Positions 1,090 through 25,942 of a stretch of 64,000 nucleotides of DNA are shown here, piece by piece. This stretch comes from a virus. The stretch spans positions 1-64,000 of the IMG/VR virus record IMGVR_UViG_3300011116_001253; one strand, given 5' to 3'. Made by a program: the position numbers and the translations under genes. Below the pieces are notes generated by a model that saw only the letters and a program-made list of their open reading frames with translations, did no database searches and was not told where the DNA came from. Each line of letters opens with the position of its first letter. Within the stretch, counting starts at the first letter, position 1.

Positions 1090-1153
1090 TACCAAATTTT
1101 CCTAAACTTTTCATTTTATACTTATTTTAGTTTTTTTCCGCGAAGTATTTAGT

Positions 1154-1161: not shown

Positions 1162-1177
1162 TAGAAAATAAATTAGA

Positions 1178-2530: not shown

Positions 2531-2564
2531 GAAACAATAAATTTTTTCCCACTAAAAATCCAAT

Positions 2565-4045: not shown

Positions 4046-4100
4046 ATTAACCATAAGAAATTTTTTCGATTAACGAGACTATAAAATTTAAAAATATAGC

Positions 4101-5249
4101 ATGATTAATATTTTAGTTGATGGTAATTATATTTTCCATAAAACATTCGGTGTTTTTGCCGGATATGGAAGTGTCGATCCCGGTAAAGTTCTAAAAAATA
4201 AATCGGATCAGGCAATGTTTATAAGAAAAGTTGCAACTGATCTAGTAGCTTCACTCAGACTCTTGCCGACGGGTGGGAGATTAATATTTACCTCTGATAG
4301 CAAAAGTTGGAGAAAAGAAATAGAGATAGAAGATGGCGGATATAAATCTGGACGAGTGAAGGATGAGAATGTTGACTGGACGATTTTCTTCGAACTTATG
4401 CAATCATTCGGATCTCATTTAGAAAAAATGGGATTTATCTTTTCCAAGGTTGAAGGAGCGGAAGGCGATGATCTTCTACTTTTTTGGTCAAGGAAATTCA
4501 TCAGTTTGGGCGAGAGTTGTATCATCATAAGTGGAGATAAGGATTTACATCAATTGGTTAAAATGTCTGGTCCTGATGCGTGGACATGTGTTTGGAATAA
4601 TAATTCTAAAAAAAATACTCTACATGCACCTCTCGGATGGAAGAATAATTGGCTGAATGGAGCTAATCACACAGAGGTTTCTATTTTTAATATGGGGTCT
4701 ACAATATCCCCCGAAAAGGAAAGATTGAAAGACTTTATTAAAAAAGTTGAAGTTGAAGAATTAGATTTTTTCCCTTTTGTATTTAATAAAATTCTCATAG
4801 GAGACAAGGGAGACTCAGTTCCTAGTGTTTGGGAATATGAGCAGTCAGGAAAAATCTATAGGTTTACCCAATCTAAAGCTGATAAGATTATGGAGTTATT
4901 TGTTCAGTCTGATTATAAATCATTAGAAATGAGCCAGCTTTCAGAGGATCAAGATTTTTTAAATTGGCTAGCTCCTCTGGTTATAAAACTTTCTAAAGGA
5001 GTTGATAGCACTGAAAATAGAAATAAAGCTAAGAATAACTGGATCAGAAATATGAAGCTTATGTGGCTCGATCCATTAGTTATCCCTGAAAAAATATTCT
5101 TCAACTCAGAACTTGATATTCAAAGGGGTCTTCAATTGGAAAAAAAAGCTGTAACCCTAGATAGAATGAAAATTCTAGATGGTACTGATTGGGTGTCAAG
5201 TAATTATCAACCTAAGGGCTTTGATCCCTTTGAAAACTTTTTGAAATAA
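4101..5249 (+). CDS. rnh: 5'-3' exonuclease / RNase H, FEN family (T4 rnh-like)
   Basis: Predicted flap endonuclease that removes RNA primers from lagging-strand fragments. Seen: an N-terminal ILVDGNYIFHK (first metal-binding Asp), RLIFTSDSKSWRKEI, VEGAEGDDLLLFW (the E-G-D-D acidic cluster) and CIIISGDKDLHQLV (second acidic site). Near residue 235, FNKILIGDKGDSVPSVW is the GDxxD helix-hairpin segment. The length (382) exceeds T4 RNase H (305), with an insert between the GDKDLHQL and GDKGDS blocks. It sits between the guanylate kinase-like gene and the small clamp-loader subunit. Confidence 0.85.
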   Translation: MINILVDGNYIFHKTFGVFAGYGSVDPGKVLKNKSDQAMFIRKVATDLVASLRLLPTGGRLIFTSDSKSWRKEIEIEDGGYKSGRVKDENVDWTIFFELMQSFGSHLEKMGFIFSKVEGAEGDDLLLFWSRKFISLGESCIIISGDKDLHQLVKMSGPDAWTCVWNNNSKKNTLHAPLGWKNNWLNGANHTEVSIFNMGSTISPEKERLKDFIKKVEVEELDFFPFVFNKILIGDKGDSVPSVWEYEQSGKIYRFTQSKADKIMELFVQSDYKSLEMSQLSEDQDFLNWLAPLVIKLSKGVDSTENRNKAKNNWIRNMKLMWLDPLVIPEKIFFNSELDIQRGLQLEKKAVTLDRMKILDGTDWVSSNYQPKGFDPFENFLK

Positions 5250-5253
5250 ACAA

Positions 5254-5685
5254 ATGGAACTTTTTGATATAGTTAAACTTATTTTCAGCAAAAAAGATGC
5301 TGAGTGGAAGAATGTTGGAAAAAACGATAAAACTCGTAATTTTTTTATGATTAATCGTATAATGGCGATCAACTTCCCAATCCAGGCCAATCAGTTCAAC
5401 AAGATTAAGGTTACACCAGCTCCTGTTGTTGATTGGTGGAGAGGTACGCTCAGTCCTAAATATACTAGAACCCCCCAGTGGATTTTTACTAAAACGAAAA
5501 AAAAAGATTCTACGAAAGATAAGGAACAGAAGAAAAATTTTGATGTTGCAGAGGATTTTGTAAGAGATAAATATAGAATATCAAGAAGAGATCTTTTACA
5601 ACTGAAAACTTTCTATCCACAGAAATATGAAAAATGGATACTAAATATTTCTGAACAGATCGGAATCCAAACAAAAAATATATAA
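5254..5685 (+). CDS. 62: Clamp loader small subunit, gp62-like
   Basis: Predicted non-catalytic partner of gp44. This family is poorly conserved, so the call rests on weak motifs plus context. The N-terminal NFFMINRIMAINFPIQANQFN resembles the FIVNR-LS---D----NEMN block of T4-like gp62 proteins. Near the C-terminus, EDFVRDKYRISRRDLLQL resembles their KxxYxxS--DA---L helix. The length (143) is shorter than T4 gp62 (187). It starts 4 bases after RNase H and is in the same operon as gp44. The Lys-rich stretch TKTKKKDSTKDKEQKK is probably a flexible loop. An alternative is an unrelated small replication protein. Confidence 0.6.
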   Translation: MELFDIVKLIFSKKDAEWKNVGKNDKTRNFFMINRIMAINFPIQANQFNKIKVTPAPVVDWWRGTLSPKYTRTPQWIFTKTKKKDSTKDKEQKKNFDVAEDFVRDKYRISRRDLLQLKTFYPQKYEKWILNISEQIGIQTKNI

Positions 5686-5688
5686 ATC

Positions 5689-6255
5689 ATGAAAAAAAAC
5701 AGCTCTGAAATTAAATTGGTAGATAAGGTTATTTCCAGTCTTGATTGGGATTCGATATTCGAAGTGAATAAATGTTTCAAAATTGGTGTTGGTGAGGGTA
5801 CTTCGGTCATTCCAGGAATTAAAAGAAAAGTTTTTGGTGATAATCTAACCAAAAATGACATAAAAGGAGAACTAAAAACCCTTTTGAAATACGTCATAGA
5901 GAATGATATAGCCGAATTATTTTATGGACCCTGGCTTATCTTTTGGACAGATGGAGATTGGGTAAAATTAGACCTAGAAACGGATGATGAAGCTGATGAT
6001 ATACCTGAACATTTTGGCGATTCTAATGGTGAAATAGAAATTGCCTTTGATTCCACCCTAGAAGTTGTTTACTCTCCTCAAAGAATTATAGTTGCAGGAA
6101 ATTCACATCAGCAAGATTTGATCAAAGATGATTCAGATACTTCGAAACTAGAGTCAATGCTTAAAAAAGCACTCCTTTCCGAAAATTATGAAGTTGCTAA
6201 TAAAATAAAAGAATTGTTGGATCTTCAGAATATCGGAGATGGTGGAGATAAATAG
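5689..6255 (+). CDS. Unknown acidic protein with a C-terminal UVR-like helix pair
   Basis: Not recognised as a named family. The 188-residue product is acidic in the middle (ETDDEADDIPEHFGD). It ends with LESMLKKALLSENYEVANKI, which resembles the helical UVR/UvrB-UvrC interaction motif (L--A----YE-A--I---L). It starts 3 bases after gp62 and is followed 4 bases later by the next gene, so it is part of the replication operon. A role in replication or repair is inferred only from context. It ends in TAG. Confidence 0.55.
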   Translation: MKKNSSEIKLVDKVISSLDWDSIFEVNKCFKIGVGEGTSVIPGIKRKVFGDNLTKNDIKGELKTLLKYVIENDIAELFYGPWLIFWTDGDWVKLDLETDDEADDIPEHFGDSNGEIEIAFDSTLEVVYSPQRIIVAGNSHQQDLIKDDSDTSKLESMLKKALLSENYEVANKIKELLDLQNIGDGGDK

Positions 6256-6259
6256 ATAG

Positions 6260-6736
6260 ATGAAACACATAAAATCTATCTATGAATTTGATACTGCCTT
6301 CGGTGACACGTACGGATACGGAGGAGCTAATGGTATTTTAAAAATAAATTATAAGCCTTTTAACGATCTTTCAGTCTCAGTTGGACAAGATCCTAACATC
6401 GATACCACCGTTAAAGGCTCACAATTTCAGGTAGGCGATGTTGTTGTAGCTCAGCCATTAGATTCTAAGAAAAAACTCACCGGAATAATAGTTAGAGCCT
6501 TCAGAGAGCCTGACAATCAAGAGTTTAGATACTTTATCCAGGTTTATAACATAGGTAAAAAAACAGAAAATGTTATCGAAGTAAAAAGTGATTCTATAAA
6601 GTTCGCTGAAGGTGGTGACCACGGTAACATGGAGACTATTTCTAAAGCTAAAAATAATCTTGTTCCTGACAAGAGCTATAATTCTAAAACTGTTTATAAT
6701 GCTTCTGAACTTGGTCTAGAGACTACAGGAGGCTAA
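6260..6736 (+). CDS. Unknown protein, 158 aa, with a SIYEFD leader
   Basis: No family recognised. The N-terminus MKHIKSIYEFDTAFGD loosely resembles the short leaders found on the predicted packaged proteins of this phage and the MKTYQEF leader of T4 internal proteins, but no clear L-x-E cut site follows. Residues ~50-110 (FQVGDVVVAQP...LTGIIVRAF...FRYFIQVYNIGKKTENVIEV) read as a small beta-barrel of the KOW/SH3 type. It may be a structural protein lying at the end of the replication operon. Confidence 0.5.
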   Translation: MKHIKSIYEFDTAFGDTYGYGGANGILKINYKPFNDLSVSVGQDPNIDTTVKGSQFQVGDVVVAQPLDSKKKLTGIIVRAFREPDNQEFRYFIQVYNIGKKTENVIEVKSDSIKFAEGGDHGNMETISKAKNNLVPDKSYNSKTVYNASELGLETTGG

Positions 6737-6779
6737 TTGGAACATTAGTCTTTCCCTGTAATATAAAAAATAAAAGATA

Positions 6780-7676
6780 ATGTTATCAGGGAGCAACTAT
6801 CCACAACTAAGTTATTTAGGTCCACATAGTGAGATTCCAACCGATAATCTCCAAATCAGCACACATCTTGATCTTCTGAGATTAATTTACACCAATCTTT
6901 CTTTAAATTTAAAGATTGATATAATTAACACCTGTATTGATGTTTCTTCGCTATCCTTTAGCTCTAAATTTTTTAAGGATGTAATTGATGAAGAGTCTGA
7001 AGAATTTTCTTCGGTTATAAATAAAATCAACACACTTATTGCAACACACGGGTCCAGAATTTTCTTTTTCATCGGGAAGGATTATTTTTTAGGTACACAG
7101 ATAGAAAGTGTGATAAAATCTACAAATCTACTAATATCAAAGCTTTCAGAGATTATCGAAACTATAGGTGTAAACTACCCCTCTATAATCATTAGAATTG
7201 GATCTGCCTATGGTAATAGAAAAAATACGATGGCAGTTTTTTGTGATAGAGCTAATGCTTTAGGTAAAGCAACATTATCCAGACTGTGTGTGTTAAATGA
7301 CGATAAACCTAGTCTTTTCTCAGTAACAGATCTTCTATCTGGAGTTTATTATAAAACAGGAATTCCAATATGCTTTAGAATATTACCTCATCATTTCAAT
7401 GATGGTGGTTTATCAATCAGAGAAGCACTATTTCTATCAAGTTCAACGTGGAAACCTGGAAGCAAGCCGGTCTTCGTCTATGGAGAATCTTGTTTGACTG
7501 ATGAATATGGATTTCCCATCGATCCGAAAACAACAGAATATCTGAAAAACAGAATACCAACTTTTGGGCTAGATCTTAATGTTATAGTAGACTCTCCTGC
7601 GAAAGAAGATTCTTGTCTCAAATACAAAATGGACTATAAATCTCTTCAGCCGATAGTTTTGAATAGAAAAAATTAA
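6780..7676 (+). CDS. uvsE: UV-damage endonuclease (UVDE/UvsE family)
   Basis: Predicted TIM-barrel endonuclease that nicks DNA 5' of UV photoproducts and abasic sites. Seen: IIIRIGSAYGNRKNTMAVF (the I-IH-GG-YGDK----F block), LSRLCVLNDDKPSLFSVTDL (LENDD metal-binding strand), TGIPICFRILPHHFNDGG (GIP---D--HH; both His present, with Asp replaced by Arg in this copy) and SSTWKPGSKPVFVYGES (TW----G-PK-H-S). At 298 residues it matches the family (~300). Some canonical metal ligands are altered: H-GG reads RIGS, and the -D- before HH is R. Activity may therefore differ from classical UvsE. Confidence 0.75.
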   Translation: MLSGSNYPQLSYLGPHSEIPTDNLQISTHLDLLRLIYTNLSLNLKIDIINTCIDVSSLSFSSKFFKDVIDEESEEFSSVINKINTLIATHGSRIFFFIGKDYFLGTQIESVIKSTNLLISKLSEIIETIGVNYPSIIIRIGSAYGNRKNTMAVFCDRANALGKATLSRLCVLNDDKPSLFSVTDLLSGVYYKTGIPICFRILPHHFNDGGLSIREALFLSSSTWKPGSKPVFVYGESCLTDEYGFPIDPKTTEYLKNRIPTFGLDLNVIVDSPAKEDSCLKYKMDYKSLQPIVLNRKN

Positions 7677-7694
7677 TTTCTCGTTGTAATTTAT

Positions 7695-7702
7695 TACATT
7701 TG
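7695..7702 (+). promoter_or_regulatory. Bacteroidota-type -7 box (TAnnTTTG) before the exonuclease gene
   Basis: TACATTTG lies 14 bases before the ATG at 7716. It is identical to the box before the kinase gene at 20586 and matches TAnnTTTG. No convincing -33 TTTG is present at the usual spacing. Confidence 0.5.
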
Positions 7703-7715
7703 TAAAAAATTAATT

Positions 7716-8423
7716 ATGTTCACTAAAGACCAAATCAAAAAATTTCTTTTTTTAGACGTTGAGACAGCAGGAGCTTATCCTGATCTAATATCTCTCCATG
7801 ATCAAAATCATCGCCTTTGGGAGCTATGGATGAAAAGAGAAAAGTATTACAGGACTGCATACCCAGATTTAGCATCTGCTGAATCGGAGGAAATTTACGT
7901 CAGCAAAGCAGGATTGGAACCTGAATTTTCTAAAATTGTCTGCATTTCGTTTGGCTCCTTTACTGAAGAAGGTGATATGAGATTCATTTCCTTTTACGGA
8001 GAAGATGAAGTTGATAATTTAAACAAAGCTTTTAAAGTTTTAAATAATGCTGCTTCGAAAGGTTGGAAGCTATGTGGACATAATATAAAGGGATTTGATA
8101 TTCCTTGTATTGGAAAAAGAATGATCTATAATCACATAGAACCTCCGATTAATTTGAGAATCTGGGATAAAAAGCCATGGGAAATGCAATTCATGGACAC
8201 CTCTGACATCTTTGCCTTTGGTAGCTGGATTCAACAAAAATACCTTAGCTTAGATCTACTAGCTTGTTCTCTAGGTATACAATCTCCTAAGGGTTTGATG
8301 GATGGTTCGATGGTTCATTCTAGATTCTGGTCAGGAGGAGAGAATGAAACCATCAAAGACTATTGCGAACTTGACGTTAAAACAGTTATGCAGGTTATGG
8401 ATAAGATATGCTTCACTAGTTAG
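7716..8423 (+). CDS. DEDDy 3'-5' exonuclease (PolB-exonuclease-like)
   Basis: Predicted 3'-5' exonuclease with an RNase H-like fold. Seen: Exo I FLFLDVETAG (Asp14, Glu16), Exo II CGHNIKGFDIPC, Exo III YCELDVKTVMQV (Y--x-D, the DEDDy form), and a MDTSDIFAFG strand. This matches the stand-alone 'predicted 3'-5' exonuclease related to the PolB exonuclease domain' group. A charged insertion (residues ~25-65, LHDQNHRLWELWMKREKYY) separates Exo I from the rest. No polymerase domain is attached. It is the last gene of the replication block and stops 22 bases before a strong terminator. It ends in TAG. Confidence 0.82.
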   Translation: MFTKDQIKKFLFLDVETAGAYPDLISLHDQNHRLWELWMKREKYYRTAYPDLASAESEEIYVSKAGLEPEFSKIVCISFGSFTEEGDMRFISFYGEDEVDNLNKAFKVLNNAASKGWKLCGHNIKGFDIPCIGKRMIYNHIEPPINLRIWDKKPWEMQFMDTSDIFAFGSWIQQKYLSLDLLACSLGIQSPKGLMDGSMVHSRFWSGGENETIKDYCELDVKTVMQVMDKICFTS

Positions 8424-8445: not shown

Positions 8446-8488
8446 AAAAAAGCTTTTTCTCTGATATATAAGAGAAAAAGCTTTTTTT
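8446..8488 (+). terminator. Rho-independent terminator closing the replication block
   Basis: A perfect 17-bp inverted repeat (8446-8462 and 8471-8487) with an 8-base loop and a run of seven T at the 3' side. It ends one base before the GTG of the next gene. The loop is exactly GATATATA, the late promoter-like motif. Confidence 0.85.
8463..8470 (+). promoter_or_regulatory. Late promoter-like GATATATA in a terminator loop
   Basis: GATATATA followed by AGAGAAAAA, 19 bases before the GTG start of the nucleotidyltransferase gene. It shares the extended form GATATATAARAGAAAAA with the motifs at 22654 and 24572. It is the loop of the 8446-8488 hairpin. Confidence 0.55.
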
Positions 8489-9298
8489 GTGGATAAAGTA
8501 ATCTCATTCAAGAATTTCAAGAATCAAAGTATCCTTTTAGAGAAGAAGATTGGACTTCCTTACAATGATGTGCTCAATCCATCCTTTTGGACTAAAAAAG
8601 AATCAAAAGACGGTGAAGTTGATTGGGTGTTTGATGAAAGGGTAAGAAAAAAACTCATAAGAATATCCAGAGATTTCTTCGAAAATTTCAAAGGAATATT
8701 CAAAACCAAAGACATAATAGACATTCAGCTCACAGGATCTCTAGCAAACTACAACTATACTAATCTATCGGATCTTGATGTTCAAATTATAGTCGATCTA
8801 AAAATTTCTTCCGATGACAACATCAATGCTATAAAAGAAGCTATTGATGGTATCGGATTCAAATGGAATCTTTCTCATAATATAAGTATTCGCGGATATG
8901 AGCTAGAAATGTACATTCAAGAACCAGAAAAACCCCACACAGGATCTGGACTTTTTTCACTTCTTAAAAATAAGTGGATAACTAATCCAGCTTATGATTC
9001 GACTGAAATTGATGAATTGGACGTTGAACAAAAATATAATTCTATTGCTTATCAAATAGAGCAGCTTGAAACTAGACTTGTATCCCTTTCTTCCGTTCCA
9101 AGCGATGCAAAACAACTGTATCAAAGAGCACTGAATCTTAAGAAAAAATTAAATAAGATGAGAAAGGAAAGCTCGTCTGACAAGGGTGAATTTTCTGTTG
9201 GCAACTTAGCCTATAAAAAACTAAGAAGTGAAGGATATATAGAAAAGCTAATTAATTTGATTTCCAAATCATACGACAAAATTTACACAGAAAAATAA
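8489..9298 (+). CDS. Predicted nucleotidyltransferase with capsid-targeting-like leader
   Basis: 269 residues, GTG start; no ATG is possible because the terminator lies immediately upstream. The polymerase-beta-type nucleotidyltransferase signature is clear: LTGSLANYNYTNLSDLDVQI, with Gly83-Ser84 and the metal-binding pair Asp95/Asp97. A likely third acid is in YELEMYI (Glu138 or Glu140). The C-terminal half is helical (QIEQLETRL...LKKKLNKM). The N-terminus VDKVISFKNFKNQSILLE matches the FKDF...LxE leaders of the gene group at 15723-18040, so the protein may be packaged, cut after Glu18 and ejected with DNA. The transferred nucleotide and the target are unknown. It has its own late promoter-like motif. 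Confidence 0.7.
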   Translation: MDKVISFKNFKNQSILLEKKIGLPYNDVLNPSFWTKKESKDGEVDWVFDERVRKKLIRISRDFFENFKGIFKTKDIIDIQLTGSLANYNYTNLSDLDVQIIVDLKISSDDNINAIKEAIDGIGFKWNLSHNISIRGYELEMYIQEPEKPHTGSGLFSLLKNKWITNPAYDSTEIDELDVEQKYNSIAYQIEQLETRLVSLSSVPSDAKQLYQRALNLKKKLNKMRKESSSDKGEFSVGNLAYKKLRSEGYIEKLINLISKSYDKIYTEK

Positions 9299-9304: not shown

Positions 9305-11821
9305 ATGATAATATTCTTAGGAAAAAGTTCAGTTTATAAAATCGATGATGATTTTCCAATCTTTAGAATTCCAGTTGATATGGAAGGAGCTGTTACACAG
9401 TCTCTTTCAGATTTTCAGTGGTGGGCTTATTCTTCTGACTTTCAAAAATGGTTAAAGGAAAATCCTAGAGAGTGGACTGCAGATTCAGAGGATATGAGCA
9501 AATATGGCTCACCAATAGATTTTATAAAAGAGAGTTTAAGAACAGAGTATCAGAGCATCGATGGATCTGTTTTAAACTTCAATGATTTCCAATCTTCGGA
9601 TATTTATGAAGCAGAGAATAGTGAAGCCTCTGCATCTCAAGCTACAAAATTTCACTACTCTTATAATACTTTACTTAGTGAGGGCAAAATAGAGAAAGAA
9701 TTTATAGTCGCTAACCAGAAGGATGGGTCTGAAAAAGCTATCTTTTTAACTTATGATGACCCAGAAACTAAGACTGAAAGATTCGAGACTTTAGATGCTT
9801 ACAAAATAACAGCTCTACCTGTTTCGGCTGATTCCAAAATGGCTTTATTTAGAATGTCTGAATCCATAATGGGAGGACCAATTCCTGACGATGAAACCAA
9901 CGATGGACTAATGAAGAGAGTCGCTGACACAACTTTTAAGGTAGCCGCTGTATCTGGTGTTGGACTAGGAATTTATTATATGATCGTAGGCGCTGGATCA
10001 GCTTTTACTGCAATGAGAGCTCGTAAAATTCTAAGAGGATTGAGACCTCAAAGCACAACCCCCACTCCTCCATCTAAACTTTTAACTTGGCTGGGTAACA
10101 CTAAAAACTCAGCTAAAGGGTTTATAAATAAAAGGGTAAATCCTTTGAGAGGGATTAAAAAAACAGCGGAGGTTTGGAAAGGTGTTGGTCAGGCTTTGAG
10201 CAGAGGCGTCAGTGGAAGTTATAAAGCTGTTAGTAAAGGTAAAGCTGGAGCTACCACCGCATTAAAAGCATTCGCCAAAGGAACTAGCAGAGGACTTTCT
10301 AAGATAGGTTCTAAAGCTGCTGTAGATTGGATTCCATTTGTTGGCTGGACCTTAGCCGCTATAGATGTTGTTGGATCGACATGGAATTGGTTCAGTGGTA
10401 AACAAGCTCCAAGATTTGGTGAAGTTGAAGATTTTGCTAAAGATAAATTCAATCCAAAATCGATTCCTGTTGGTGTTCCAATTACTATTTGCTGGTCTCA
10501 AGAAGCAGGTGGAACCTGGGGTACTGTTGTAAACTTTCTTGCTAATAATGACACTAGGACCACAATGGAATTAGTGAAGGTTTCAGATATAAATGGAAAA
10601 TCAATTTTTATAATCACACAGATAAATTCTAAAGAATTGGGTAAGCAAATAGCTGAACATGAATTGACCCTTATTTCTTTCAATAGCTCTGAAACAGTAG
10701 AAACTGGACTAATAGATAATGATGATCTCGATTTCGAAATTTTACCAATAGATGGATTAGATAAGATAGCCAGTATTTTTAATTTCAAAGGGGTCTGTGA
10801 TTGGAATGAAGCCTTTACAACTTACGAATCCTCTTCTGATAAACTCTTCTATGCAGATCCTGAAGCTCCTAAGAAATATGATTTCCACTTTGATGATTCG
10901 GATGGAGAAATTATAAATGTTTCTGGTGATTTGATGGATGATGATTCTCTTTCAAAATTATCTGATACTGATCTAAATAAATTCATGTTGGGTTCTTTTA
11001 CAAGTGAAAAAAATGAAAGTCTAGAATCCGACCTTGATTGGAATAGAAATATTCTAGAATCTGACAATCTTTTAGATTTTGAAAGTTTCGTTTCCAATGC
11101 AATCATAAACGAGGATGACGAGGCTTCAACAGAAGCAGATCAAAATTACGATCTAAAACCTTCCCAAAAAAGAGGACCTGCTAAAGTTGCAATCTATAAA
11201 GTAACTGAACGAGAGTATGCAAATCCTGAGTTTAGAGGTAAATACGAAACCGGTGACTTCAAAATTTTTGTAATCGATTCAGAAGATTGGAATGATGCAG
11301 ATGGTGAAAAGATTGATGTAGAAGTTAATACTTCAGAAGTTTTAGAAGACACTATCAAAGGTATTTATACTTATCGATCAGAGGGAAAGGAAGTTAAAAA
11401 GGATGAAGAAAAACCAAAGTCTGAAGAAGGAGAGACCAAGCAGCAAGGAGCAGAAAAGGAAGAGAAAGGTAAAAAGTTACCTGATGACTATTACATCATT
11501 GCAAACCCAGATGATATTTCAATTAAACAGAAAGAAAGATCTACAACAATCAGAGACGCAAATTTCTCAGGAGGACTTAATTTATTCGATAAGTTTTTAA
11601 CTCCTAGACAGAAAGAGATATTGGGCGTAGATAAGTGGAAGACAATAACCTTTGCAAAAGAATTCTACGATAAGAGAGGAGATGTTATAGAGGTTAAGTT
11701 GAAGAATAAATATGCACCATTCGGAGAGAAGAGTAAGAAGTATAGAGTTATTGATGGTGAATCGTTTGAGATAGCTAAGAAATTTGTTGAGGAAACAAGA
11801 GACAGAATTAAATATGAATAA
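9305..11821 (+). CDS. Large virion-type protein with membrane-active segments
   Basis: 838 residues, family not recognised. One predicted membrane segment lies near residues 213-235 (VAAVSGVGLGIYYMIVGAGS). A Gly/Ala/Lys-rich region (KAVSKGKAGATTALKAFAKG) leads to a second hydrophobic segment (WIPFVGWTLAAIDVVGS, ~residues 343-360). The pattern recalls pore-forming or ejection proteins. Near residue 95 an internal LNFNDFQSSDIYEAE resembles the packaged-protein leaders. The central region is acidic (DDDSLSKLSDTDLNKF). A Glu/Lys-rich linker (residues ~695-725) precedes a C-terminal domain. Its place in the late head unit, before the protease, suggests an internal or ejected head protein. Confidence 0.6.
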   Translation: MIIFLGKSSVYKIDDDFPIFRIPVDMEGAVTQSLSDFQWWAYSSDFQKWLKENPREWTADSEDMSKYGSPIDFIKESLRTEYQSIDGSVLNFNDFQSSDIYEAENSEASASQATKFHYSYNTLLSEGKIEKEFIVANQKDGSEKAIFLTYDDPETKTERFETLDAYKITALPVSADSKMALFRMSESIMGGPIPDDETNDGLMKRVADTTFKVAAVSGVGLGIYYMIVGAGSAFTAMRARKILRGLRPQSTTPTPPSKLLTWLGNTKNSAKGFINKRVNPLRGIKKTAEVWKGVGQALSRGVSGSYKAVSKGKAGATTALKAFAKGTSRGLSKIGSKAAVDWIPFVGWTLAAIDVVGSTWNWFSGKQAPRFGEVEDFAKDKFNPKSIPVGVPITICWSQEAGGTWGTVVNFLANNDTRTTMELVKVSDINGKSIFIITQINSKELGKQIAEHELTLISFNSSETVETGLIDNDDLDFEILPIDGLDKIASIFNFKGVCDWNEAFTTYESSSDKLFYADPEAPKKYDFHFDDSDGEIINVSGDLMDDDSLSKLSDTDLNKFMLGSFTSEKNESLESDLDWNRNILESDNLLDFESFVSNAIINEDDEASTEADQNYDLKPSQKRGPAKVAIYKVTEREYANPEFRGKYETGDFKIFVIDSEDWNDADGEKIDVEVNTSEVLEDTIKGIYTYRSEGKEVKKDEEKPKSEEGETKQQGAEKEEKGKKLPDDYYIIANPDDISIKQKERSTTIRDANFSGGLNLFDKFLTPRQKEILGVDKWKTITFAKEFYDKRGDVIEVKLKNKYAPFGEKSKKYRVIDGESFEIAKKFVEETRDRIKYE

Positions 11822-11845: not shown

Positions 11846-11853
11846 GATATATA
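11846..11853 (+). promoter_or_regulatory. Late promoter-like GATATATA before protease-scaffold
   Basis: GATATATAAGAAATAA lies 25 bases before the ATG at 11878. It would drive the protease-scaffold and major capsid genes up to the terminator at 15610. Confidence 0.6.
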
Positions 11854-11877: not shown

Positions 11878-13842
11878 ATGCCATTGCCACAACTACAATC
11901 AATTAATGAAGATTATGTTTTCATTTTAGAAAAACAAAATTCTATTCTAGAAGCAAAGAGATCTGATTCTGATGATTATGTCTTAGAAGGTATTGCTGCT
12001 GTTTTCGGACAAGAAAACAATAACAATAGAATCTACGAAGAAAAAGAATATCTCCCACACTTAGAATACCTTAAAGAAAAAATCTCACAAAACAGATTGG
12101 TTGGTGAGTTAGATCATCCTGAGAAGTTTGATGTGTCTTTAAAGAACATCTCACACATCATAACCCATCTTGATTTTGATAGAGGTGATAGATTACTAAA
12201 GATAAAAGTAAGATTGCTCGACACACCAGCAGGAAAAATAGCAAAGAGCCTAGTAGATGCAGGTGTTCCACTTTCAATTTCATCTAGAGCAGCTGGATCG
12301 GTTGGACCTGATAAAAAGGTTCAAATTAAAAAAATCTTTACTTATGATTTAGTAGCAGATCCAGGTTTTAAGGATGCACAACTTGAAAGAGTGTATGAAA
12401 GTCAAGGGTTTACAACTATCCAGATCGAAGAAATGAAAAAAAATAGCATTTTAAACGGTCTAGAGTGTCTAAATGAATCATTAGGTATCGAAAATGAATC
12501 GACGTTAAAGATATATAAAGTCGAAAACGATCTAGAATTTCAAAAAATCGTAAATAAATCAGATAATAAAAATAAAACAGCCATTATGGAGAATAATGAA
12601 TTTGTTACTGCAGAGGAACTAAATAAGTATTCAATTTTCCTTAAAAAGGAAATGGACTCTTTGAAATCAGCCATCTCAGAAGTAAAGGAACAAAAAGCAT
12701 CTTTGACTGAATCAGAGGAAGCTAACAGATCAAATCAAGCGCTCGAAGAAAGAGTTGCTAAGTTGGAAAAATATTCAGAGTATTTAGCAGAGAATTTAGA
12801 GAATGCTGTTAAGTATGGTGAGTACTTAGCAGAAAACTTAGATAATTCTATCAACTACAGTAAATATCTAGCTGAAAATTTAGATAAGAATATTTCATAT
12901 TCTAAATATTTAGCTGAAAATGTTGACAAGTCTATTACATATTCAGAATATGTTGCAGAAAGCGTTGATAAGAACATCGAATATTCTAAATATTTAGCTG
13001 AAAAGTTAGATCAAAATATACAGTATTCTGAATACTTAGCAGAAAATGTAGATCACTCAATTAACTATTCTGAATATCTAGCAGAAAATCTCGATAAAGG
13101 TATTGCTTACACTGAATATGTAGCTGAAAAGTTAAACGATGGTATCGAATATTCAGAATATCTTGCTGAAAATGTTAATAAAGGAATTCAGTATTCAGAG
13201 TATCTAGCTGAAAATATCAACAAAGGAGTTGATTTCACTGAAAATCTTTCAGAAAAGCTTAATAAATCTATTTCTTATAGTGAATATATAGCTGAATCAG
13301 TTTCTAATAAATTGCCAGCTGATCCTAGTACAGTATTAAGAGAAAGTGTGAATACATCTGCAGTTGCAGGTCTAAATGAATCTGGCTTCGCTGGAAATTA
13401 TGAAGATCTAACATCAAGGATTGATTCACTCATTGAATCGGTTAAAACCCAAAAAACCGAGTCTAATATCACCGAGGCTATGAAAACCGTAGCACCAGCC
13501 AAAACACAAAAGGCAGAAGAAGTTCTTAACGAGAACGAAAACATCAACAAAACAGGACTCAAATTTATCGATGAGATGCCTGAAGATTATGCTCCAGTTT
13601 GGGAATCTTTAAATGAAGGACAAAAGCAATCAATCATTGCTCAATCAAACTTCTACAGATTAGATACACCTTACCAGATCAAAAATTTCTGGCAAACACG
13701 TCAATTAGGTTCTAAATCTGTTGGAGTACAGAAACTCGACGAGAACGAAAACGTTGCTCAAACTACAAAAACACAAGCTTATGGTTCAGATTATATGAAC
13801 TATATAGCTAGTACGTTAGAGCAAAAGTTCCAAAGACGATAA
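11878..13842 (+). CDS. 21: Prohead protease (gp21-like) fused to a coiled-coil scaffold
   Basis: Residues 1-~195 are a T4 gp21-type serine protease. GELDHPE carries the catalytic His80, VPLSISSRAAGSV carries the Ser (Ser136 is the likely nucleophile), and DLVADPGF supplies the family's acidic strand. Residues ~237-654 look like scaffold (gp22-like): a helical start, thirteen 14-residue repeats (residues ~298-479), then a Gln/Glu-rich tail with several L-N-E sequences (GLNE|S, VLNE|N, SLNE|G) that the protease could cut. T4 keeps protease and scaffold in separate genes; here they are one 654-residue frame. An internal ATG at 12586 (MENNEFVTAEEL) after an A-rich leader could make scaffold alone. 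Self-cleavage near SILE|AKR is plausible. Confidence 0.85.
   Translation: MPLPQLQSINEDYVFILEKQNSILEAKRSDSDDYVLEGIAAVFGQENNNNRIYEEKEYLPHLEYLKEKISQNRLVGELDHPEKFDVSLKNISHIITHLDFDRGDRLLKIKVRLLDTPAGKIAKSLVDAGVPLSISSRAAGSVGPDKKVQIKKIFTYDLVADPGFKDAQLERVYESQGFTTIQIEEMKKNSILNGLECLNESLGIENESTLKIYKVENDLEFQKIVNKSDNKNKTAIMENNEFVTAEELNKYSIFLKKEMDSLKSAISEVKEQKASLTESEEANRSNQALEERVAKLEKYSEYLAENLENAVKYGEYLAENLDNSINYSKYLAENLDKNISYSKYLAENVDKSITYSEYVAESVDKNIEYSKYLAEKLDQNIQYSEYLAENVDHSINYSEYLAENLDKGIAYTEYVAEKLNDGIEYSEYLAENVNKGIQYSEYLAENINKGVDFTENLSEKLNKSISYSEYIAESVSNKLPADPSTVLRESVNTSAVAGLNESGFAGNYEDLTSRIDSLIESVKTQKTESNITEAMKTVAPAKTQKAEEVLNENENINKTGLKFIDEMPEDYAPVWESLNEGQKQSIIAQSNFYRLDTPYQIKNFWQTRQLGSKSVGVQKLDENENVAQTTKTQAYGSDYMNYIASTLEQKFQRR
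12769..13314 (+). repeat. Thirteen tandem 42-bp repeats encoding a 14-residue unit
   Basis: Consensus unit x-Y-S-E-Y-L-A-E-N-L-D-K-x-I, repeated 13 times without gaps in the scaffold part of the protease fusion. Fourteen residues equal two heptads, so a continuous coiled coil or helical rod is expected. Codons differ between units, so the repeat is maintained at protein level. Units 12 and 13 are the most divergent. Confidence 0.92.
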
Positions 13843-13867: not shown

Positions 13868-15589
13868 ATGAAATTGATTAACGAAAATGAAATCTATGAA
13901 ACCTGGTCTCCGATTATCGAGAGCAAAGCTGGTATCACAGATGAAAGCAAAAAAGGATGGTTGACTAAATATTGTCACTATCACTCATTAAACGAATCTG
14001 CCGGTGCATATAACTCTTTAGGAGTTGTTAACGGTATGGGTACTGTAGCGCCACCTGCATTCCCTGGAGCTTCTTATCCTGGAGGTGCATATTCAAGTGG
14101 TGCTAACGCTGGTTTCTATAACAACACTTGGCAAGGTTCAGGCGATAAATTCCCTTCACTTCTTCCATTAGCTATTCAAGTAGCTGCGAAGACTATCGGT
14201 TTTGATATCGTTCCTGTTATCCCTATGTCTGGTCCAACTGGTATCTTATCTTACTTAGATTATGTATACGCAGGTGGTAAAATTGGAGCTGCTTCTGCAA
14301 GCTCAGCTGCTGATCAGTTAGCTTCTGCTCCTTCAATGATTAAATTCCCAGTTTACCAATCAGCATCTGGAACAGGTGTTACTGGTGCTACTGCTGGAAC
14401 TTTCTCTGTTGGTGCTACTGCTTCTATTGGTAACACTTTACTTTTAGAATTCGTAGGTTTATCAAGAATTGACGGATTCCCTATCTTCGAAATCACGGGT
14501 ATCGCTGCAAGTTTTAACGTTGCTTCTTATATTAACGGTACTCCTGCACAAGTAGTTACTGGAAGTGGTGGTTCTGGTTTCTATACTGGTGCTTCTACTG
14601 TTAACTATTCTGCACAGTTAGTTAAAGCTTTAGAAGATCACATCCAAGGATTCTCTGGTGCTGGTTTCAACAACGACCAACAATGGCAAGGTCCTTACGT
14701 AGATGGTACTAGGACTTACAACCCTATGTTAAGAGGAGTAGCTGAATCTACCTACTACAACTCAATGGGTCTTTCGACTTTCACTAAGTTCGTAGAAGCT
14801 GAAACTTTCCAAGTTGCTGCATCAGTTACAACTGAGCAAATCCAAGATTTAAACAAGCAATTCGGTATTGATGTTATCTCAATGATCGAGAACGCATTAG
14901 TTAACGAGGTTTCTCAAGCAATTAACAAGCACATTCTTGCTAGAACATTTGCTTTAGGTTGGTCTAACCACGTACAATTCAATAACGTAGAAAACCAAAA
15001 CCTTAACTTAAACCTAATTATTGGTGGTGGTTCTGGTACAACTTTAGCTTACGTAAATAAAGAAGATGCTACAAGATCTATGACTATCCCTGCAGGTCCT
15101 GCATCAGGTGGATATGAGAACTTATCAACTTTACAAAGAAGATTATTCTCAAGAATCCTTGCAGCTGCTAACGTGGTAGCTAACAGAGGTAGAAGAGGTC
15201 CTGCTAACTTCATCGTTACTAACGCTGCAGTAGCAAGTGCACTTCAAGATATCTCTCAGTTCACTTTCGCTCCATTCTCTAATACTTTAACTCAAAACAA
15301 TGGTACTTTATACCCTGTAGGTTCACTTGCTGGTATGACTGTATATGTTGATCAAAATATGAACTATAATGATACTAGAGTTTGTGTTGGTAGAAAAGGT
15401 GGTGATGATGAGCCTGGAATTAAATTCATGCCTTATATGATGGCTGAATCTATTCAGACTATCTCTGAAGGTACAATGTCACCTAAGATCGCAGTAAAAT
15501 CTAGATATGCTTTAGTAGAAGCTGGTTTCTTACCAGAGTCTATGTACTTAACATTCTTTGTTAACGTACCAGCTGGTGGATTAGCTTAA
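13868..15589 (+). CDS. 23: Major capsid protein, gp23-like
   Basis: 573 residues, HK97-fold major capsid protein of the T4 type. Conserved blocks: ESTYYNSMGLSTFTKFVEAE, ASVTTEQIQDLNKQFGIDV, ALVNEVSQAINKHIL, RRGPANFIVTNAAVASAL, and the C-terminal PKIAVKSRYALVEAGFLPES. The N-terminal ~38 residues should be removed by the prohead protease; the likely cut is HSLNE|SAGAYNSLG, with another candidate at SPIIE|SKAG. A Gly/Thr/Ala-rich section (TGVTGATAGTFSVGATAS, residues ~172-190) probably lies in the surface insertion domain. Codon choice is more uniform than in neighbours (many GCT, GGT, AAC), as expected for the most abundant virion protein. A terminator follows at 15610. Confidence 0.95.
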   Translation: MKLINENEIYETWSPIIESKAGITDESKKGWLTKYCHYHSLNESAGAYNSLGVVNGMGTVAPPAFPGASYPGGAYSSGANAGFYNNTWQGSGDKFPSLLPLAIQVAAKTIGFDIVPVIPMSGPTGILSYLDYVYAGGKIGAASASSAADQLASAPSMIKFPVYQSASGTGVTGATAGTFSVGATASIGNTLLLEFVGLSRIDGFPIFEITGIAASFNVASYINGTPAQVVTGSGGSGFYTGASTVNYSAQLVKALEDHIQGFSGAGFNNDQQWQGPYVDGTRTYNPMLRGVAESTYYNSMGLSTFTKFVEAETFQVAASVTTEQIQDLNKQFGIDVISMIENALVNEVSQAINKHILARTFALGWSNHVQFNNVENQNLNLNLIIGGGSGTTLAYVNKEDATRSMTIPAGPASGGYENLSTLQRRLFSRILAAANVVANRGRRGPANFIVTNAAVASALQDISQFTFAPFSNTLTQNNGTLYPVGSLAGMTVYVDQNMNYNDTRVCVGRKGGDDEPGIKFMPYMMAESIQTISEGTMSPKIAVKSRYALVEAGFLPESMYLTFFVNVPAGGLA

Positions 15590-15691: not shown

Positions 15692-15699
15692 GATATATA
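15692..15699 (+). promoter_or_regulatory. Late promoter-like GATATATA before the packaged-protein cluster
   Basis: GATATATAGATAATAAAAATG lies 24 bases upstream of the ATG at 15723 and 53 bases past the capsid terminator. Almost the same spacing is seen before the protease gene. Confidence 0.6.
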
Positions 15700-15722: not shown

Positions 15723-16877
15723 ATGAAAAATTTACCTTCATTTAAAGATTTTAGTAATTATGATTCGCTTTTAGAATCAGCCTCAGCCGAAGAAATGAAT
15801 ATTCTGAATGAACTTGAAACTGCAAACCCTCTGCATACACTGAACGAGGGACAAATTTTAGATTCAATTAAGAATAAACTTTCTAAATTTTTTCTTGGCA
15901 AATTTTCAAAGCTTAGCGTTTTGGACCATGCTAGAAAAGTTTTAGTTGATCTTGAGATCGATCTTATAGAAAAAAGATATGAATACGAGGACTCCGTTTC
16001 TGAGATAGAATCACAAATAGATTCATTAGGAATGGGTGTTGATAAACAGAAATCTCTTGCTCTCAGAAAAGATCGAGATAATAAGATCAAGGAGTTTGAA
16101 AATTACGAAAAGGCTTCAAAACTTAAAATGAAAAAAGCTTTAGAGGTGATAAGAGATATCATAGATGGCGATTCTAGAAAGAGAAAATATTATGAAGCAG
16201 GAAAATCTGAAGATGAAATAGGATTGGCCGAACTTAAATATAAACTGGCTAAAGAAAGATCTGATGACAAGCAGATTAAAAGATATGAAGAAGACATCAG
16301 AAAAGCCAAGGAAGAAGCTGAAGAAAAAGCAAAATCTCTTAAATCTGAAGTTGAAAATAAAGAATCTGCAGAAAAGGACAGAAAAGATAAAGATGTTAAG
16401 CAGGAACAAAAAATTCTAATTGATCCAGAAAAAGAGAAGAAAAAAATATCAAGCAGAAGAGGAAAGGATATTATCGAAAGAAAAAGACAGCTAGAAAACA
16501 GTATAGTTGATCTAAAAGCAGATATGGAAAGAATGCTAAATAGAATAGAAAAGCATTTGAAATCTGGAAAGAAAATCTCAAAATCATATCTGGACACCAG
16601 AAAGATTAAACTTCTTTCGATGGCAACTTCAATAGATTCACAAACAAATCTATTAAAAATCCTAAGAGATCTTGGCAAAACAGAAAGCGAGATAACAAAG
16701 AAATTATCTAAAGAGCATGAGTTCACTAAGTTAACGAATATGATTAATCAGGGGATTTCAGAAGGTGGCGATCTTAAATCTGGATTGAAAAAAGCTATTT
16801 CTTCTGTTTTCGTTGGTCCTGAAGGAACAATAAGCCATGAAAAACTGAAGCAGGCAAAAGAAAAATTGAACAAATAA
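15723..16877 (+). CDS. Predicted packaged coiled-coil protein with LLE leader
   Basis: 384 residues, rich in Lys and Glu, with long helical coiled-coil stretches (residues ~75-150 and ~160-250, EEDIRKAKEEAEEKAKSL). The N-terminus MKNLPSFKDFSNYDSLLE|SASAEE resembles a T4 capsid-targeting sequence, which is removed by the gp21 protease after an L/I-x-E site. A second L-N-E site occurs at residues ~39-41 (HTLNE|GQIL). No enzyme motif is seen. By analogy with the T4 internal proteins it may be packaged with DNA; this is inference from the leader and the late head context. Confidence 0.6.
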   Translation: MKNLPSFKDFSNYDSLLESASAEEMNILNELETANPLHTLNEGQILDSIKNKLSKFFLGKFSKLSVLDHARKVLVDLEIDLIEKRYEYEDSVSEIESQIDSLGMGVDKQKSLALRKDRDNKIKEFENYEKASKLKMKKALEVIRDIIDGDSRKRKYYEAGKSEDEIGLAELKYKLAKERSDDKQIKRYEEDIRKAKEEAEEKAKSLKSEVENKESAEKDRKDKDVKQEQKILIDPEKEKKKISSRRGKDIIERKRQLENSIVDLKADMERMLNRIEKHLKSGKKISKSYLDTRKIKLLSMATSIDSQTNLLKILRDLGKTESEITKKLSKEHEFTKLTNMINQGISEGGDLKSGLKKAISSVFVGPEGTISHEKLKQAKEKLNK

Positions 16878-16878
16878 T

Positions 16879-17796
16879 ATGACTTTGAATTTTAAAGACT
16901 GGGAAAGCCTAAATGAGGCTAATATTTTTGATAAACTCAAGAATTTTTTAAGTGGAGCTTTCGGTGGTGATGTATCTAAATTAGATTCATTGGGAGAAGA
17001 ATATAGATCTGCTGAGATGGATTATGTTGACGAATGGGAATCTATACAGGAAGAAATTGATAAGCTTGAACTGGAAAGATCTCAAACGAAAGCAGATCCA
17101 GCTGAAATTAAAAAAATTGATAGACTCGTTCAGAGAAACAATCAGCTGCTCACTGCTCAGGAAAAAGCTCATGCGAAAAAAACAGATGATATTTTTGCTA
17201 AGGTTAAAAAGATAATCTCTGAAAATAGAAGATTACGAATTTATTGGGAAAGACTCAAAAGTAAAATTGATGTAGAGATTACCCAAGACATGTATGAAAA
17301 GGCCAAAAAATTGGCAGATTCTTCTCTATCTGGTAATCTATACGGTAAATACAAAGATGCTCTTTTGAAATCTAAGCAGAAGGACGAAGAATTCAGGGAG
17401 AAATATGGTAATCTAATGACGAGAGAAATTCAAGTCAGGTCAAAATCATCAAAATATGATGATTTCGATATTGACTCTTCTGAACCCGAAATTAAATTTA
17501 AAACATCTTTCTCTTATCTCGCGAATCTTCCTATTTCTGAATTTTCAAAGGAAATAAAAGACCTGGATAGAAAAGAAGCTAAAAGCCTATTGTCTTATTT
17601 GATAAAAGAAAGAAATGAAAGATATGTTGCAATGGATCTAGAAAAAGATGCTCTTAATAAATTCGTTACTAAAGCATCTGATAAGACAAAAGCAAGAGAT
17701 ATAGCGGAAGATAAGGCAAAAGATATCAGAGCTAAATATATGGGTGAAATAAGAGACCTAAGATCAAAAATCACTTTGACTAGAAAATATGCTTAA
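16879..17796 (+). CDS. Predicted packaged coiled-coil protein with LNE leader
   Basis: 305 residues. The leader MTLNFKDWESLNE|ANIFDK is a close variant of its neighbours' leaders, with the predicted cut after Glu13. The following segment ANIFDKLKNFLSGAFGGDVSKL resembles the equivalent region of the upstream protein (ILDSIKNKLSKFFLGKFSKL), so the two look paralogous. The rest is charged helix (ESIQEEIDKLELERSQ). The ATG is 1 base after the upstream stop, and the end overlaps the next gene by 8 bases, so the genes are translationally linked. Confidence 0.6.
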   Translation: MTLNFKDWESLNEANIFDKLKNFLSGAFGGDVSKLDSLGEEYRSAEMDYVDEWESIQEEIDKLELERSQTKADPAEIKKIDRLVQRNNQLLTAQEKAHAKKTDDIFAKVKKIISENRRLRIYWERLKSKIDVEITQDMYEKAKKLADSSLSGNLYGKYKDALLKSKQKDEEFREKYGNLMTREIQVRSKSSKYDDFDIDSSEPEIKFKTSFSYLANLPISEFSKEIKDLDRKEAKSLLSYLIKERNERYVAMDLEKDALNKFVTKASDKTKARDIAEDKAKDIRAKYMGEIRDLRSKITLTRKYA

Positions 17797-18040
17797 CTTT
17801 AAAGACTTTAAGTTGCAAGAGGCAGAAACCCCTTTAACAACAATACAAAAACTTAAAACTCAAATCTCTGAGAAATTTGATGCTATTACAGTAGCAAAAA
17901 AAGAGAAAAAACCAGGAGACATGAACTCTGAAGTAAACAGCATTATAAAACAATCTGCTCTATATTCAGAGATATCAGCTCTTATGAAGAATCTAGCTAC
18001 TGAAATTAAAGCAAGCGGAAAAAGCGAAAATATATACTAA
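17789..18040 (+). CDS. Small predicted packaged protein with LQE leader
   Basis: 83 residues. The leader MLNFKDFKLQE|AETPLTT is the shortest and cleanest copy of the motif; cleavage after Glu11 would leave a 72-residue basic helical peptide. Size and charge resemble T4 internal proteins IPI-IPIII. It overlaps the end of the upstream gene by 8 bases and is followed after 2 bases by the 827-residue gene. Confidence 0.6.
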   Translation: MLNFKDFKLQEAETPLTTIQKLKTQISEKFDAITVAKKEKKPGDMNSEVNSIIKQSALYSEISALMKNLATEIKASGKSENIY

Positions 18041-22653: not shown

Positions 22654-22661
22654 GATATATA
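22654..22661 (+). promoter_or_regulatory. Late promoter-like GATATATA before the 222-aa gene
   Basis: GATATATAAAAGAAAAATTTTC lies 17 bases before the ATG at 22678. The stretch is almost identical to the one at 24572 (GATATATAAAAGAAAAAATT...). Confidence 0.6.
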
Positions 22662-22677: not shown

Positions 22678-23346
22678 ATGCCTAGAATTATAAAGGATTT
22701 AAAATCATTCAACAATAACGAAAAACTCAATGAAGACTTTAGCTGGGGAAATCTAATCTCTGGAGCTTTAAATTTAGGAGGCGAAGGTTTACGTAAAACC
22801 ATTAAAGAAAAAATTGCAGCTTCAATAATGGAAAAATTTGGGATTAGAGATAATTCAATTTTTTCAGGTCTTGTTCAGGAAGTTGTTGATGCAATACCAG
22901 TAAAAGATTATCCAGAAATAATTATGGGTGAAAAAGCTAATGTTGAATATCTAGCTCCATTCATGGTCCAGGCAATTGGAGAATTTATTCAAAGAAAAGG
23001 TTTAGATACTTTAGCAGATTCTTTAGGATTGGATCCGAGAGGTTGGTTATATAGTACTCTTGTCAATAGCTTCCAGACAGACAAAGGAAAGGAGACACTT
23101 AAGAACATGTTCGTTGAAGCATTTGGTGGTAAAGAAGCAAAGGGATCTGTAGCTAGAGATGTAATAAGCGGTTTACCTGATAGGGATAAGGCAAAAATTT
23201 CTGACAGTGTTAAACAAAGAATCTCTACACTATATGGTAAAAAAGTAGAAATGGAGCCAGCTAAAGATTCTAAAGGAATTGGTGACTATGCTTCTGATTT
23301 CTGGCATTCTTTACTAGGTGACAAAGAATCTAAAAAAACATTTTAA
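22678..23346 (+). CDS. Unknown late protein with LNE leader
   Basis: 222 residues. The N-terminus MPRIIKDLKSFNNNEKLNE|DFSWGN fits the predicted capsid-targeting leader class, with a cut after Glu19. The mature part begins with a Gly/Leu-rich segment (NLISGALNLGGEGL), followed by helical stretches with conserved-looking Gly-Leu turns (LDPRGWLYSTLVNSF). No family is recognised. It is probably a packaged or head-associated protein made late under its own GATATATA motif, and it is followed 2 bases later by the next gene. Confidence 0.55.
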   Translation: MPRIIKDLKSFNNNEKLNEDFSWGNLISGALNLGGEGLRKTIKEKIAASIMEKFGIRDNSIFSGLVQEVVDAIPVKDYPEIIMGEKANVEYLAPFMVQAIGEFIQRKGLDTLADSLGLDPRGWLYSTLVNSFQTDKGKETLKNMFVEAFGGKEAKGSVARDVISGLPDRDKAKISDSVKQRISTLYGKKVEMEPAKDSKGIGDYASDFWHSLLGDKESKKTF

Positions 23347-24597: not shown

Positions 24598-25038
24598 ATG
24601 AGCAGAATATACGATTATAACCAGTTTTCTCAAAAAAAGAATAGAGTAGGTGGAGATTTTACTTTCGGCCAGGAAATGAAATATGTTGATATTGATCTTT
24701 TCAATAGACCAAAAGAATGGGATGACATTTACGACGTAAAAGCTTTTCTTGAATATTCGGTCGACATTGAAGTTAGAAAATCAGGAATCGAAGGACTCCA
24801 ATTTCGAATAAATTCAGTTGAATTAGAAATCAAGATAGATGACTATCCAAATTCACCGAAAGAATTTGACTTTGACCTAGTCCCTGGAAAGACCATTGAT
24901 TACGACCAATTAGTGGCAAATCCTTTGGACTACATGATACCAACATATCCTTCAAATCTAGAAATAAATATGAATGGCAGTCCAGAGCCAACTAAGTGGA
25001 AGATAGAAGTAAAATTTGGAACCGATGTACATTCTTAA
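24598..25038 (+). CDS. Unknown late protein, 146 aa
   Basis: Not recognised. The N-terminus MSRIYDYNQFSQKKN weakly resembles the leader class; no L-x-E cut follows. The body is mostly beta-strand with acidic character (EIKIDDYPNSPKEFDFDLVP). It is the first gene of a long late unit and overlaps the next start by 14 bases. Confidence 0.5.
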   Translation: MSRIYDYNQFSQKKNRVGGDFTFGQEMKYVDIDLFNRPKEWDDIYDVKAFLEYSVDIEVRKSGIEGLQFRINSVELEIKIDDYPNSPKEFDFDLVPGKTIDYDQLVANPLDYMIPTYPSNLEINMNGSPEPTKWKIEVKFGTDVHS

Positions 25039-25942
25039 TAATAAAGTACTTTGTTTTTCAGCTTTTCTGAATAATCTATCTGAATCCAATTCTTATTCTA
25101 TACCTGGAGTTAATCTGAATTCTGATGGAATGTATAGAATTGAGGTTTCCGAAATTGATGCAGAGAAAGAAAATTCTGATCCTAATGGAATTTTCATTTC
25201 GGTTGACTCTAATAATGTGTCATTATTTTTTATTGATGGACGTGGTAAAAAATCTGAAGAAATCTTAATACCTAAAGAATCTTTAGAAATTGTAGACGAA
25301 GATCCAAATAAAAAATACATTAATTTTCTTCCCTATGGTTCATGGATTTCTAAATCTCAAAATTTAGATATGATTGAAGATTTCATAGAGGATTATGGAG
25401 ATTCTATAGAATCCGATAGAAATTCAGGACCCGATAGGGATGTTCAAAATGCAAAAGATGATGTTGAAATAATGTTAGATATCTTCGATGTAACAAACCC
25501 GATAAAAAAATTCAATAAAATTTCGGATGATTTGTGGAATGCAGAATTAGAAGATGGAAGAATTGTAGAAATATTCAAGAAAAATCCAGATGATCTTATG
25601 TCAGTTTTCAAAATATTCAAAACCAAAGATCACTCAAAACCAGTTTTAACTATTAAAAAAACAGACTCTGCTCCTAAAACGATTTTTAATTTGGATGGCT
25701 TGGATAAGGTTGAAATCGGTGATATTCTATTGGGATATAGAAATCAAAATCCATACATAAGATATCTGGCTAAAAAAAGTTTGGGCTCTGAAACATCTGA
25801 AGATCAATCCGATCTTTATAACTATTTTTTAGAAAAGAATAAGAAAGAAAATAAGGACCATCAGGAACTTCGTAACATAATAAAACTGTTATCTGATTTT
25901 GTCAATCCAGAAGAATTAAATTCAATATCGCTTACTTTTTAA
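25025..25942 (+). CDS. Unknown acidic late protein, 305 aa
   Basis: No family recognised. The ATG at 25025 is chosen over a TTG at 25016; the start lies inside the upstream gene, so the two are probably translationally coupled. The N-terminal MYILNNKVLCFSAFLNNLSE is followed by a small beta-domain (MYRIEVSEIDAEKE...IFISVDSNNVSLFF). Next come an acidic helical linker (~residues 115-155) and a second beta-domain (LWNAELEDGRIVEIFKK). The C-terminal helix is LRNIIKLLSDFVNPEEL. Confidence 0.5.
   Translation: MYILNNKVLCFSAFLNNLSESNSYSIPGVNLNSDGMYRIEVSEIDAEKENSDPNGIFISVDSNNVSLFFIDGRGKKSEEILIPKESLEIVDEDPNKKYINFLPYGSWISKSQNLDMIEDFIEDYGDSIESDRNSGPDRDVQNAKDDVEIMLDIFDVTNPIKKFNKISDDLWNAELEDGRIVEIFKKNPDDLMSVFKIFKTKDHSKPVLTIKKTDSAPKTIFNLDGLDKVEIGDILLGYRNQNPYIRYLAKKSLGSETSEDQSDLYNYFLEKNKKENKDHQELRNIIKLLSDFVNPEELNSISLTF

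Follow-up and report, generated by a model that had tools for sequence, protein, structure and literature searches.

A two-part N-terminal leader as a probable T4-type capsid-targeting signal across the genomes of related huge phages

Background

Three consecutive genes (15723, 16879 and 17789) directly 3' of the major capsid protein gene in phage record IMGVR_UViG_3300011116_001253 encode proteins that begin with variants of one short leader. This raises the question of whether the leader is a capsid-targeting signal of the kind carried by the internal proteins of T4, as a first-pass annotation had proposed, and how far beyond the head genes it is used. In the T4 internal protein IPIII (MKTYQEFIAE), targeting depends on residues 4 and 7 and processing on residues 8 and 10; Asp at position 10 blocks processing and leaves targeting intact (PMC9026906).

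Methods

The window, which is the whole stretch of DNA analysed, comprises 64 kb of the 67.7 kb record. Coordinates without a prefix are positions in the window, genes are named by their first position, and all window features described lie on the + strand. The comparison took in 47 loci surrounding related capsid genes. The records are metagenomic, genes were called mechanically as the longest non-overlapping ORFs, and counts pooled over orthologues consist of mutually dependent entries.

A first two-block matrix was built from head-module leaders only (aromatic-x-x-aromatic, a gap of 0–13 residues, [LIVM]-x-E) and run at a cut-off score of 12 on the mechanically called ORFs of four related phages (records of 290–482 kb). 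A second matrix was built from 113 families of cargo encoded beyond the head module, which were picked with the first matrix and included no T4 or window sequence. Paired leader scores are given as head-trained matrix/matrix trained outside the head module.

Results

Head module and leaders of the window

The window contains a T4-like head module made up of part of a portal gene (115), a protease-scaffold gene (11878-13842) and the major capsid protein gene (13868-15589). The match of the portal-like ORF (115-1089) is limited to positions 218-510 of phrog_213 (length 528), and the N-terminal part of the portal lies outside the ORF. The gp21-like protease and the matching capsid protein site (LNE before SAGAY) reported in the first-pass annotation were both recovered: the product of 11878..13842 joins a prohead protease (matching the phrog_207 head maturation protease at residues 21-239, E = 1e-37) to a C-terminal region that resembles a scaffold, and the major capsid protein has a propeptide (13868..13996) with a predicted cut between LNE43 and S, HSLNE followed by S being invariant in all capsid orthologues having that N-terminus. 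A gp21-family protease and a capsid protein with the same predicted cut motif occur together in the leader-bearing phage. Relatives of the capsid protein belong to huge or jumbo phages, some uncultured and the cultured ones growing on Bacteroidota (PTm1, MA9V, MaF61 and PAU; Lak is assigned to Prevotella), and on the basis of these relatives the lineage probably infects Bacteroidota.

Six window genes (15723, 16879, 17789, 8489, 22678 and 25025) encode a common two-part leader consisting of aromatic-x-x-aromatic, a gap of 0-10 residues and [LIV]-x-E. The leader of the 384-aa product of 15723 is MKNLPSFKDFSNYDSLLE (15723..15776; scores 30.4/19.4), kept in 28 orthologues; sequence and orthologues suggest that a further propeptide (15777..15848) follows it, with candidate sites after ILNE30 and TLNE42, and past the third site the body of this protein and the 16879 body are paralogues. 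The 305-aa product of 16879 has the leader MTLNFKDWESLNE ahead of Ala (16879..16917; 33.9/23.5). In this leader sequence, MTLNFKDWESLNEA, the aromatic pair is F5/W8 and the Glu is E13, and M1, L3, F5, W8 and E13 are invariant across 19 orthologues. AlphaFold2 rendered the leader as a low-confidence segment and the body as all-helical (pTM 0.47). Homologues of the 16879 body at loci L027-L034, L040, L046 and L047 have very different N-termini, the homology starting at the predicted cut; a search of a phage collection for relatives of this body found none. The 83-aa product of 17789 begins with MLNFKDFKLQE ahead of Ala (17789..17821; 30.7/21.8; 24 orthologues).

Related leaders had also been reported for the nucleotidyltransferase-like gene 8489 and the 222-aa gene 22678, and both are present. 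The former is MDKVISFKNFKNQSILLE ahead of Lys (8489..8542; 22.5/13.6), which orthologues keep at varying length. The latter is MPRIIKDLKSFNNNEKLNE ahead of Asp (22678..22734; 17.6/18.3), and here the window copy departs from the pattern, the first aromatic being replaced by L (D-L-K-S-F); many orthologues have FDSF or FEDF at this place, followed by the terminal NE. The AlphaFold2 model of 22678 was poor (pLDDT 54). A sixth leader gene, overlooked in the first pass, encodes a 300-aa protein with the leader MYILNNKVLCFSAFLNNLSE ahead of Ser (25025..25084; 19.0/12.7), also found in the G001, G002 and G005 orthologues; the ORF was called from TTG 25016, and ATG 25025 is the likelier start. A PHROGs search with 15723, 16879, 17789 and 22678 gave no match.

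When the window was scored with the outside-head matrix, which had seen none of it in training, 16879, 17789, 15723 and 22678 were the top four genes, and shuffles predict 0.00, 0.00, 0.00 and 0.015 genes at their scores, which upholds the report of leader variants on three consecutive genes. By their own sequence 8489 and 25016 are weaker (0.13 and 0.2 genes expected), and most of their orthologues examined have leaders of varying length. Orthologues in up to 29 loci keep the leaders despite changes in length, and the Glu of [LIV]-x-E almost always ends the leader, with the conserved body directly after it.

Genome-wide search and cargo

At a score of 12, the first matrix identified leaders on 44 of 416, 41 of 424, 38 of 361 and 62 of 688 genes in the four related records, where shuffled N-termini predict 2.0, 2.4, 2.4 and 4.6 and internal chunks of the same proteins gave the same null. 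The profile search across related phages that had been suggested as a check thus added dozens of leader-bearing proteins per genome. By their mature parts the 186 strict matches group into 121 families, of which 27 occur in two or more genomes; the leaders, mostly 10-26 aa long, stand on otherwise unrelated proteins. Outside the head module, the leader was kept in 75-94% of reciprocal-best-match partners, against 4-10% for other genes. Samples of other huge phages also gave an excess (LR756500, 13 against 3.1 expected; LR745206, 11 against 2.1), and none was found in samples of Lak-C1 (1 against 0.8), crAss001 (0 against 0.2) or phiKZ (50 kb; 0 against 0.1).

Most cargo proteins had no match in Pfam or PHROGs. 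Those that did included adenylate kinase, a RimK-like ATP-grasp ligase, CHAP and SLT cell-wall enzymes, a peptidoglycan-binding protein and a GDPD domain. The leader-bearing RimK-type ATP-grasp protein, labelled ribosomal protein S6 glutaminyl transferase in PHROGs, has an extra C-terminal domain (G001:202577-204034, G002:171110-172570 and G005:140786-142243). At G002:38629-48374 (L076 and neighbours), 11 genes for leader-bearing LRR-like proteins stand in tandem, with relatives in G001 and G005.

Retrieval of T4 internal proteins

The aromatic and [LIV]-x-E blocks correspond to the mapped positions 4/7 and 8/10 of T4 IPIII. Over T4 ORFs the first matrix placed ipIII, ipII and ipI at ranks 7, 16 and 1 (Mann-Whitney p = 8e-5), and the second matrix put ipIII, ipII, gp61.1 and ipI, in this order, in the first four places among 273 ORFs. 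By this score gp61.1 falls between ipII and ipI; its gene (L098:18966-19130, NC_000866) encodes 54 aa beginning MKTFKEFIKE, followed by DMVAG; on this sequence gp61.1 is a candidate overlooked internal protein. Gene 61.1 stands beside adfA (61.2), in a possible anti-TA island (PMC9391042).

Leader syntax, the predicted cleavage site and its avoidance in cargo

Aromatic residues spaced i,i+3 were enriched 1.77-fold in N-termini, and other spacings stood at 0.83-1.02. With the aromatic block as sole anchor, [LIVMF]xE came next in 141 of 206 proteins, against 46-51 at control distances, and [LIVMF]xD showed no enrichment after the block; enrichment of Glu and not Asp at the junction indicates selection on the peptide. 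Ser and Ala are the most frequent residues after the leader Glu, at 4-fold over background, and the preferred junction is L/I-N-E followed by S/A.

The same site is scarce in the mature proteins. [LI]xE[SAG] occurs in cargo bodies at 0.68 of the shuffled expectation and in other proteins at 1.37, and the [LI]xD and [LI]xK controls are alike in both groups. The bodies of 15723, 16879, 17789, 8489 and 25016 are depleted of the protease site. The 22678 family is enriched in it (26 against 13.4), and on this pattern 22678 may be a core component degraded in maturation and not delivered cargo, as may some other leader genes. In the protease-scaffold body (11878), [LI]xE is strongly enriched, which is what a core destroyed in maturation should show.

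These counts bear on an alternative in which the tag would be a core-assembly signal on scaffold parts that are mostly destroyed in maturation, as with T4 gp22, gp67 and gp68, and not on retained proteins. Such a role would suit 15723, 16879 and 17789, which adjoin the capsid gene and whose products are helical and rich in Lys and Glu, the three N-terminal sites of 15723, and the site-rich 22678 family. It is opposed by the depletion in the five bodies named above and in the cargo generally, against the strong enrichment in the protease-scaffold, and adenylate kinase and RimK are unlikely scaffolds. We consider this explanation improbable for the leader set as a whole.

A candidate promoter motif common to leader and virion genes

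The motif GATATATA, a late-type promoter candidate, lies before leader genes 8489 (8463..8470), 15723 (15692..15699) and 22678 (22654..22661) and before the protease-scaffold gene (11846..11853), about 20-40 nt (mostly 25-40) upstream. In the window it also precedes several tail-region genes, and it was found before none of the genes of the replication block at 115-8423. Upstream of leader genes that lie outside the head module it was enriched in G001 (p = 1e-8), G002 (p = 2e-4) and G005 (p = 2e-6, Fisher); in G006 the enrichment was not significant (Fisher p = 0.09). GATATATA looks like a late promoter of this lineage, common to leader and virion genes. Two other candidates, TATAAATA and TAnnTTTG, showed no enrichment before leader genes.

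A late-type promoter motif shared with virion genes speaks against a leader that sends proteins elsewhere, such as to a replication compartment or the host envelope, with its Glu left uncleaved. Mixed cargo functions, cell-wall enzymes among them, would agree with that explanation, which we nonetheless judge very unlikely: the same matrix retrieves the proven capsid tags of T4, Glu and not Asp is enriched with S/A next, and the site is avoided in bodies. It is hardly credible that the leader is shared merely through gene duplication, or as a DNA element near the start codon, and has no peptide function, as the tandem paralogue arrays (e.g., the 11 genes in G002) and the paralogous 15723 and 16879 bodies might suggest, given the 121 mature-part families among 186 strict matches, the gap length that differs among orthologues and the Glu-specific junction.

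Repeats of the protease-scaffold and internal leaders of an 838-aa protein

Residues 299-480 of the 11878 product (12772..13317) consist of 13 tandem 14-residue repeats resembling YSEYLAENLDKSI. Twelve of the 13 have aromatic-xx-aromatic-[LIV]-x-E (YxxY[LIV]xE), one has N at the second aromatic, and all 13 have the Glu; full-length protease-scaffold orthologues have 10-15 copies. Similar arrays occur in G006 and LR745206, and a further G006 protein, encoded apart from the protease gene at G006:264056-264997, has five aromatic-xx-aromatic-[LIVM]xE units. The repeat syntax is that of the T4 tag (YQEFIAE). At the residue level the likeness to the phage's own leaders is weak, block A of the repeats scoring -0.3 on average (background -2.8), a level that 32% of background sites also reach, and mimicry of the scaffold is therefore put forward only as a hypothesis.

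An 838-aa protein encoded at 9305-11821 contains two internal leader copies, SVLNFNDFQSSDIYE ahead of Ala (9566..9610; score 23.2) and NLLDFESFVSNAIINE ahead of Asp (11066..11113; score 25.4), both kept in most orthologues. None of 5000 shuffles gave two internal leaders as good. Internal copies are rare in other proteins, so the leader signal is N-terminal with the exception of this protein. It has a hydrophobic stretch around residues 210-240 and no PHROG match, and may serve as a core hub or be a polyprotein.

Comparison with other phages

The huge-phage leaders share with the T4 capsid-targeting sequences of IPI, IPII and IPIII a short N-terminal form, aromatics three apart, a terminal [LI]-x-E, placement on unrelated proteins and a gp21-family protease; in T4 IPI, too, a long gap separates the two blocks. 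They differ in the preference for the L/I-N-E junction followed by S/A, in a gap that is variable as a rule, in the internal copies of the one 838-aa protein, and in a protease fused to a repeat scaffold. Tagged genes number 38-62 per huge-phage genome against three proven in T4, where membership is experimental; in the huge phages it is predicted from sequence.

In phiKZ and SPN3US, a relative of gp21 cleaves many head proteins after a Glu, and the trimmed proteins are delivered together with the DNA (PMC5694885). Such trimming, predicted here, is shared with their inner-head and ejection propeptides, but those have an A-x-E or S-x-E motif, are often more than 100 residues long, and lack a common two-block tag on dozens of proteins. 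Neither the A-x-E/S-x-E motif nor such long propeptides were found in the leaders described here, whose P3 residue was restricted by the search pattern to L, I, V, F or M (and is mostly L/I) and whose length is mostly 10-26 aa.

Sphingomonas phage PAU (L147, L050 and L148) has a leader of its own, MK[ST][LI]xxLYE(xKLNE), on at least 15 genes. Like the huge-phage leaders it occurs in the head module and beyond, and the leader-bearing gp142, gp154 and gp199 are annotated as 'internal capsid protein'; the PAU consensus differs, and the leader matrix finds no excess in PAU. Lak phages have the same capsid type and, in the Lak-C1 sample, lack the leader. A search of open-access papers yielded no description of a leader family of this kind in huge phages of Bacteroidota.

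Discussion

The leaders are, in our assessment, very likely to be T4-type capsid-targeting propeptides used genome-wide. The likeness to T4 signals claimed in the first-pass annotation is supported by the two-block match, the retrieval of T4 internal proteins, the placement of the motif, the avoidance of the site in cargo and the presence of a gp21-family protease. Three of the observations are independent of the leader sequence itself: the site avoidance in cargo bodies, the promoter motif and the invariant site of the capsid protein. Against capsid targeting stand the adenylate kinase and cell-wall enzymes, which are not obvious virion contents, the Lak capsid type without the leader, the promoter result in G006, and the training of the second matrix on picks of the first.

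In the proposed mechanism, the aromatic-x-x-aromatic block and the preceding hydrophobic residue would attach a new protein to the core of the prohead, cleavage after [LIV]-x-E by the fused protease-scaffold would follow during head maturation, and the trimmed mature protein would stay in the head together with the DNA. We infer core docking, cleavage and virion retention of the leader proteins; ejection of the mature proteins into the host is a weaker inference, drawn by analogy with T4. About a tenth of all genes in the lineage are tagged, including enzymes and many small unknown proteins, and the predicted set of virion cargo is accordingly large. A strategy that serves three proteins in T4 is probably applied to roughly a tenth of the genes in these related huge phages.

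A further model is tentative and, on balance, doubtful. The leader would be a detached scaffold repeat, each cargo protein mimicking one unit; the fused protease would destroy the repeats and trim the cargo. The 838-aa protein, as a core hub or polyprotein, would be cut in three, and some 40-60 different proteins per virion would be delivered by one peptide code.

T4 internal proteins include anti-defence factors: IPI acts against GmrSD, and IPIII is required on strain ECOR17 (PMC9391042). The 40-60 leader-defined candidates per genome therefore form a short list of likely first actors in the host, among them the RimK-like ligase, adenylate kinase, cell-wall hydrolases and the LRR-like arrays. 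For huge phages, whose proteins mostly lack a known function, the two-block peptide code would serve as a predictor of virion cargo that needs only sequence, and the list of leaders opens the contents of their heads to direct proteomic test.
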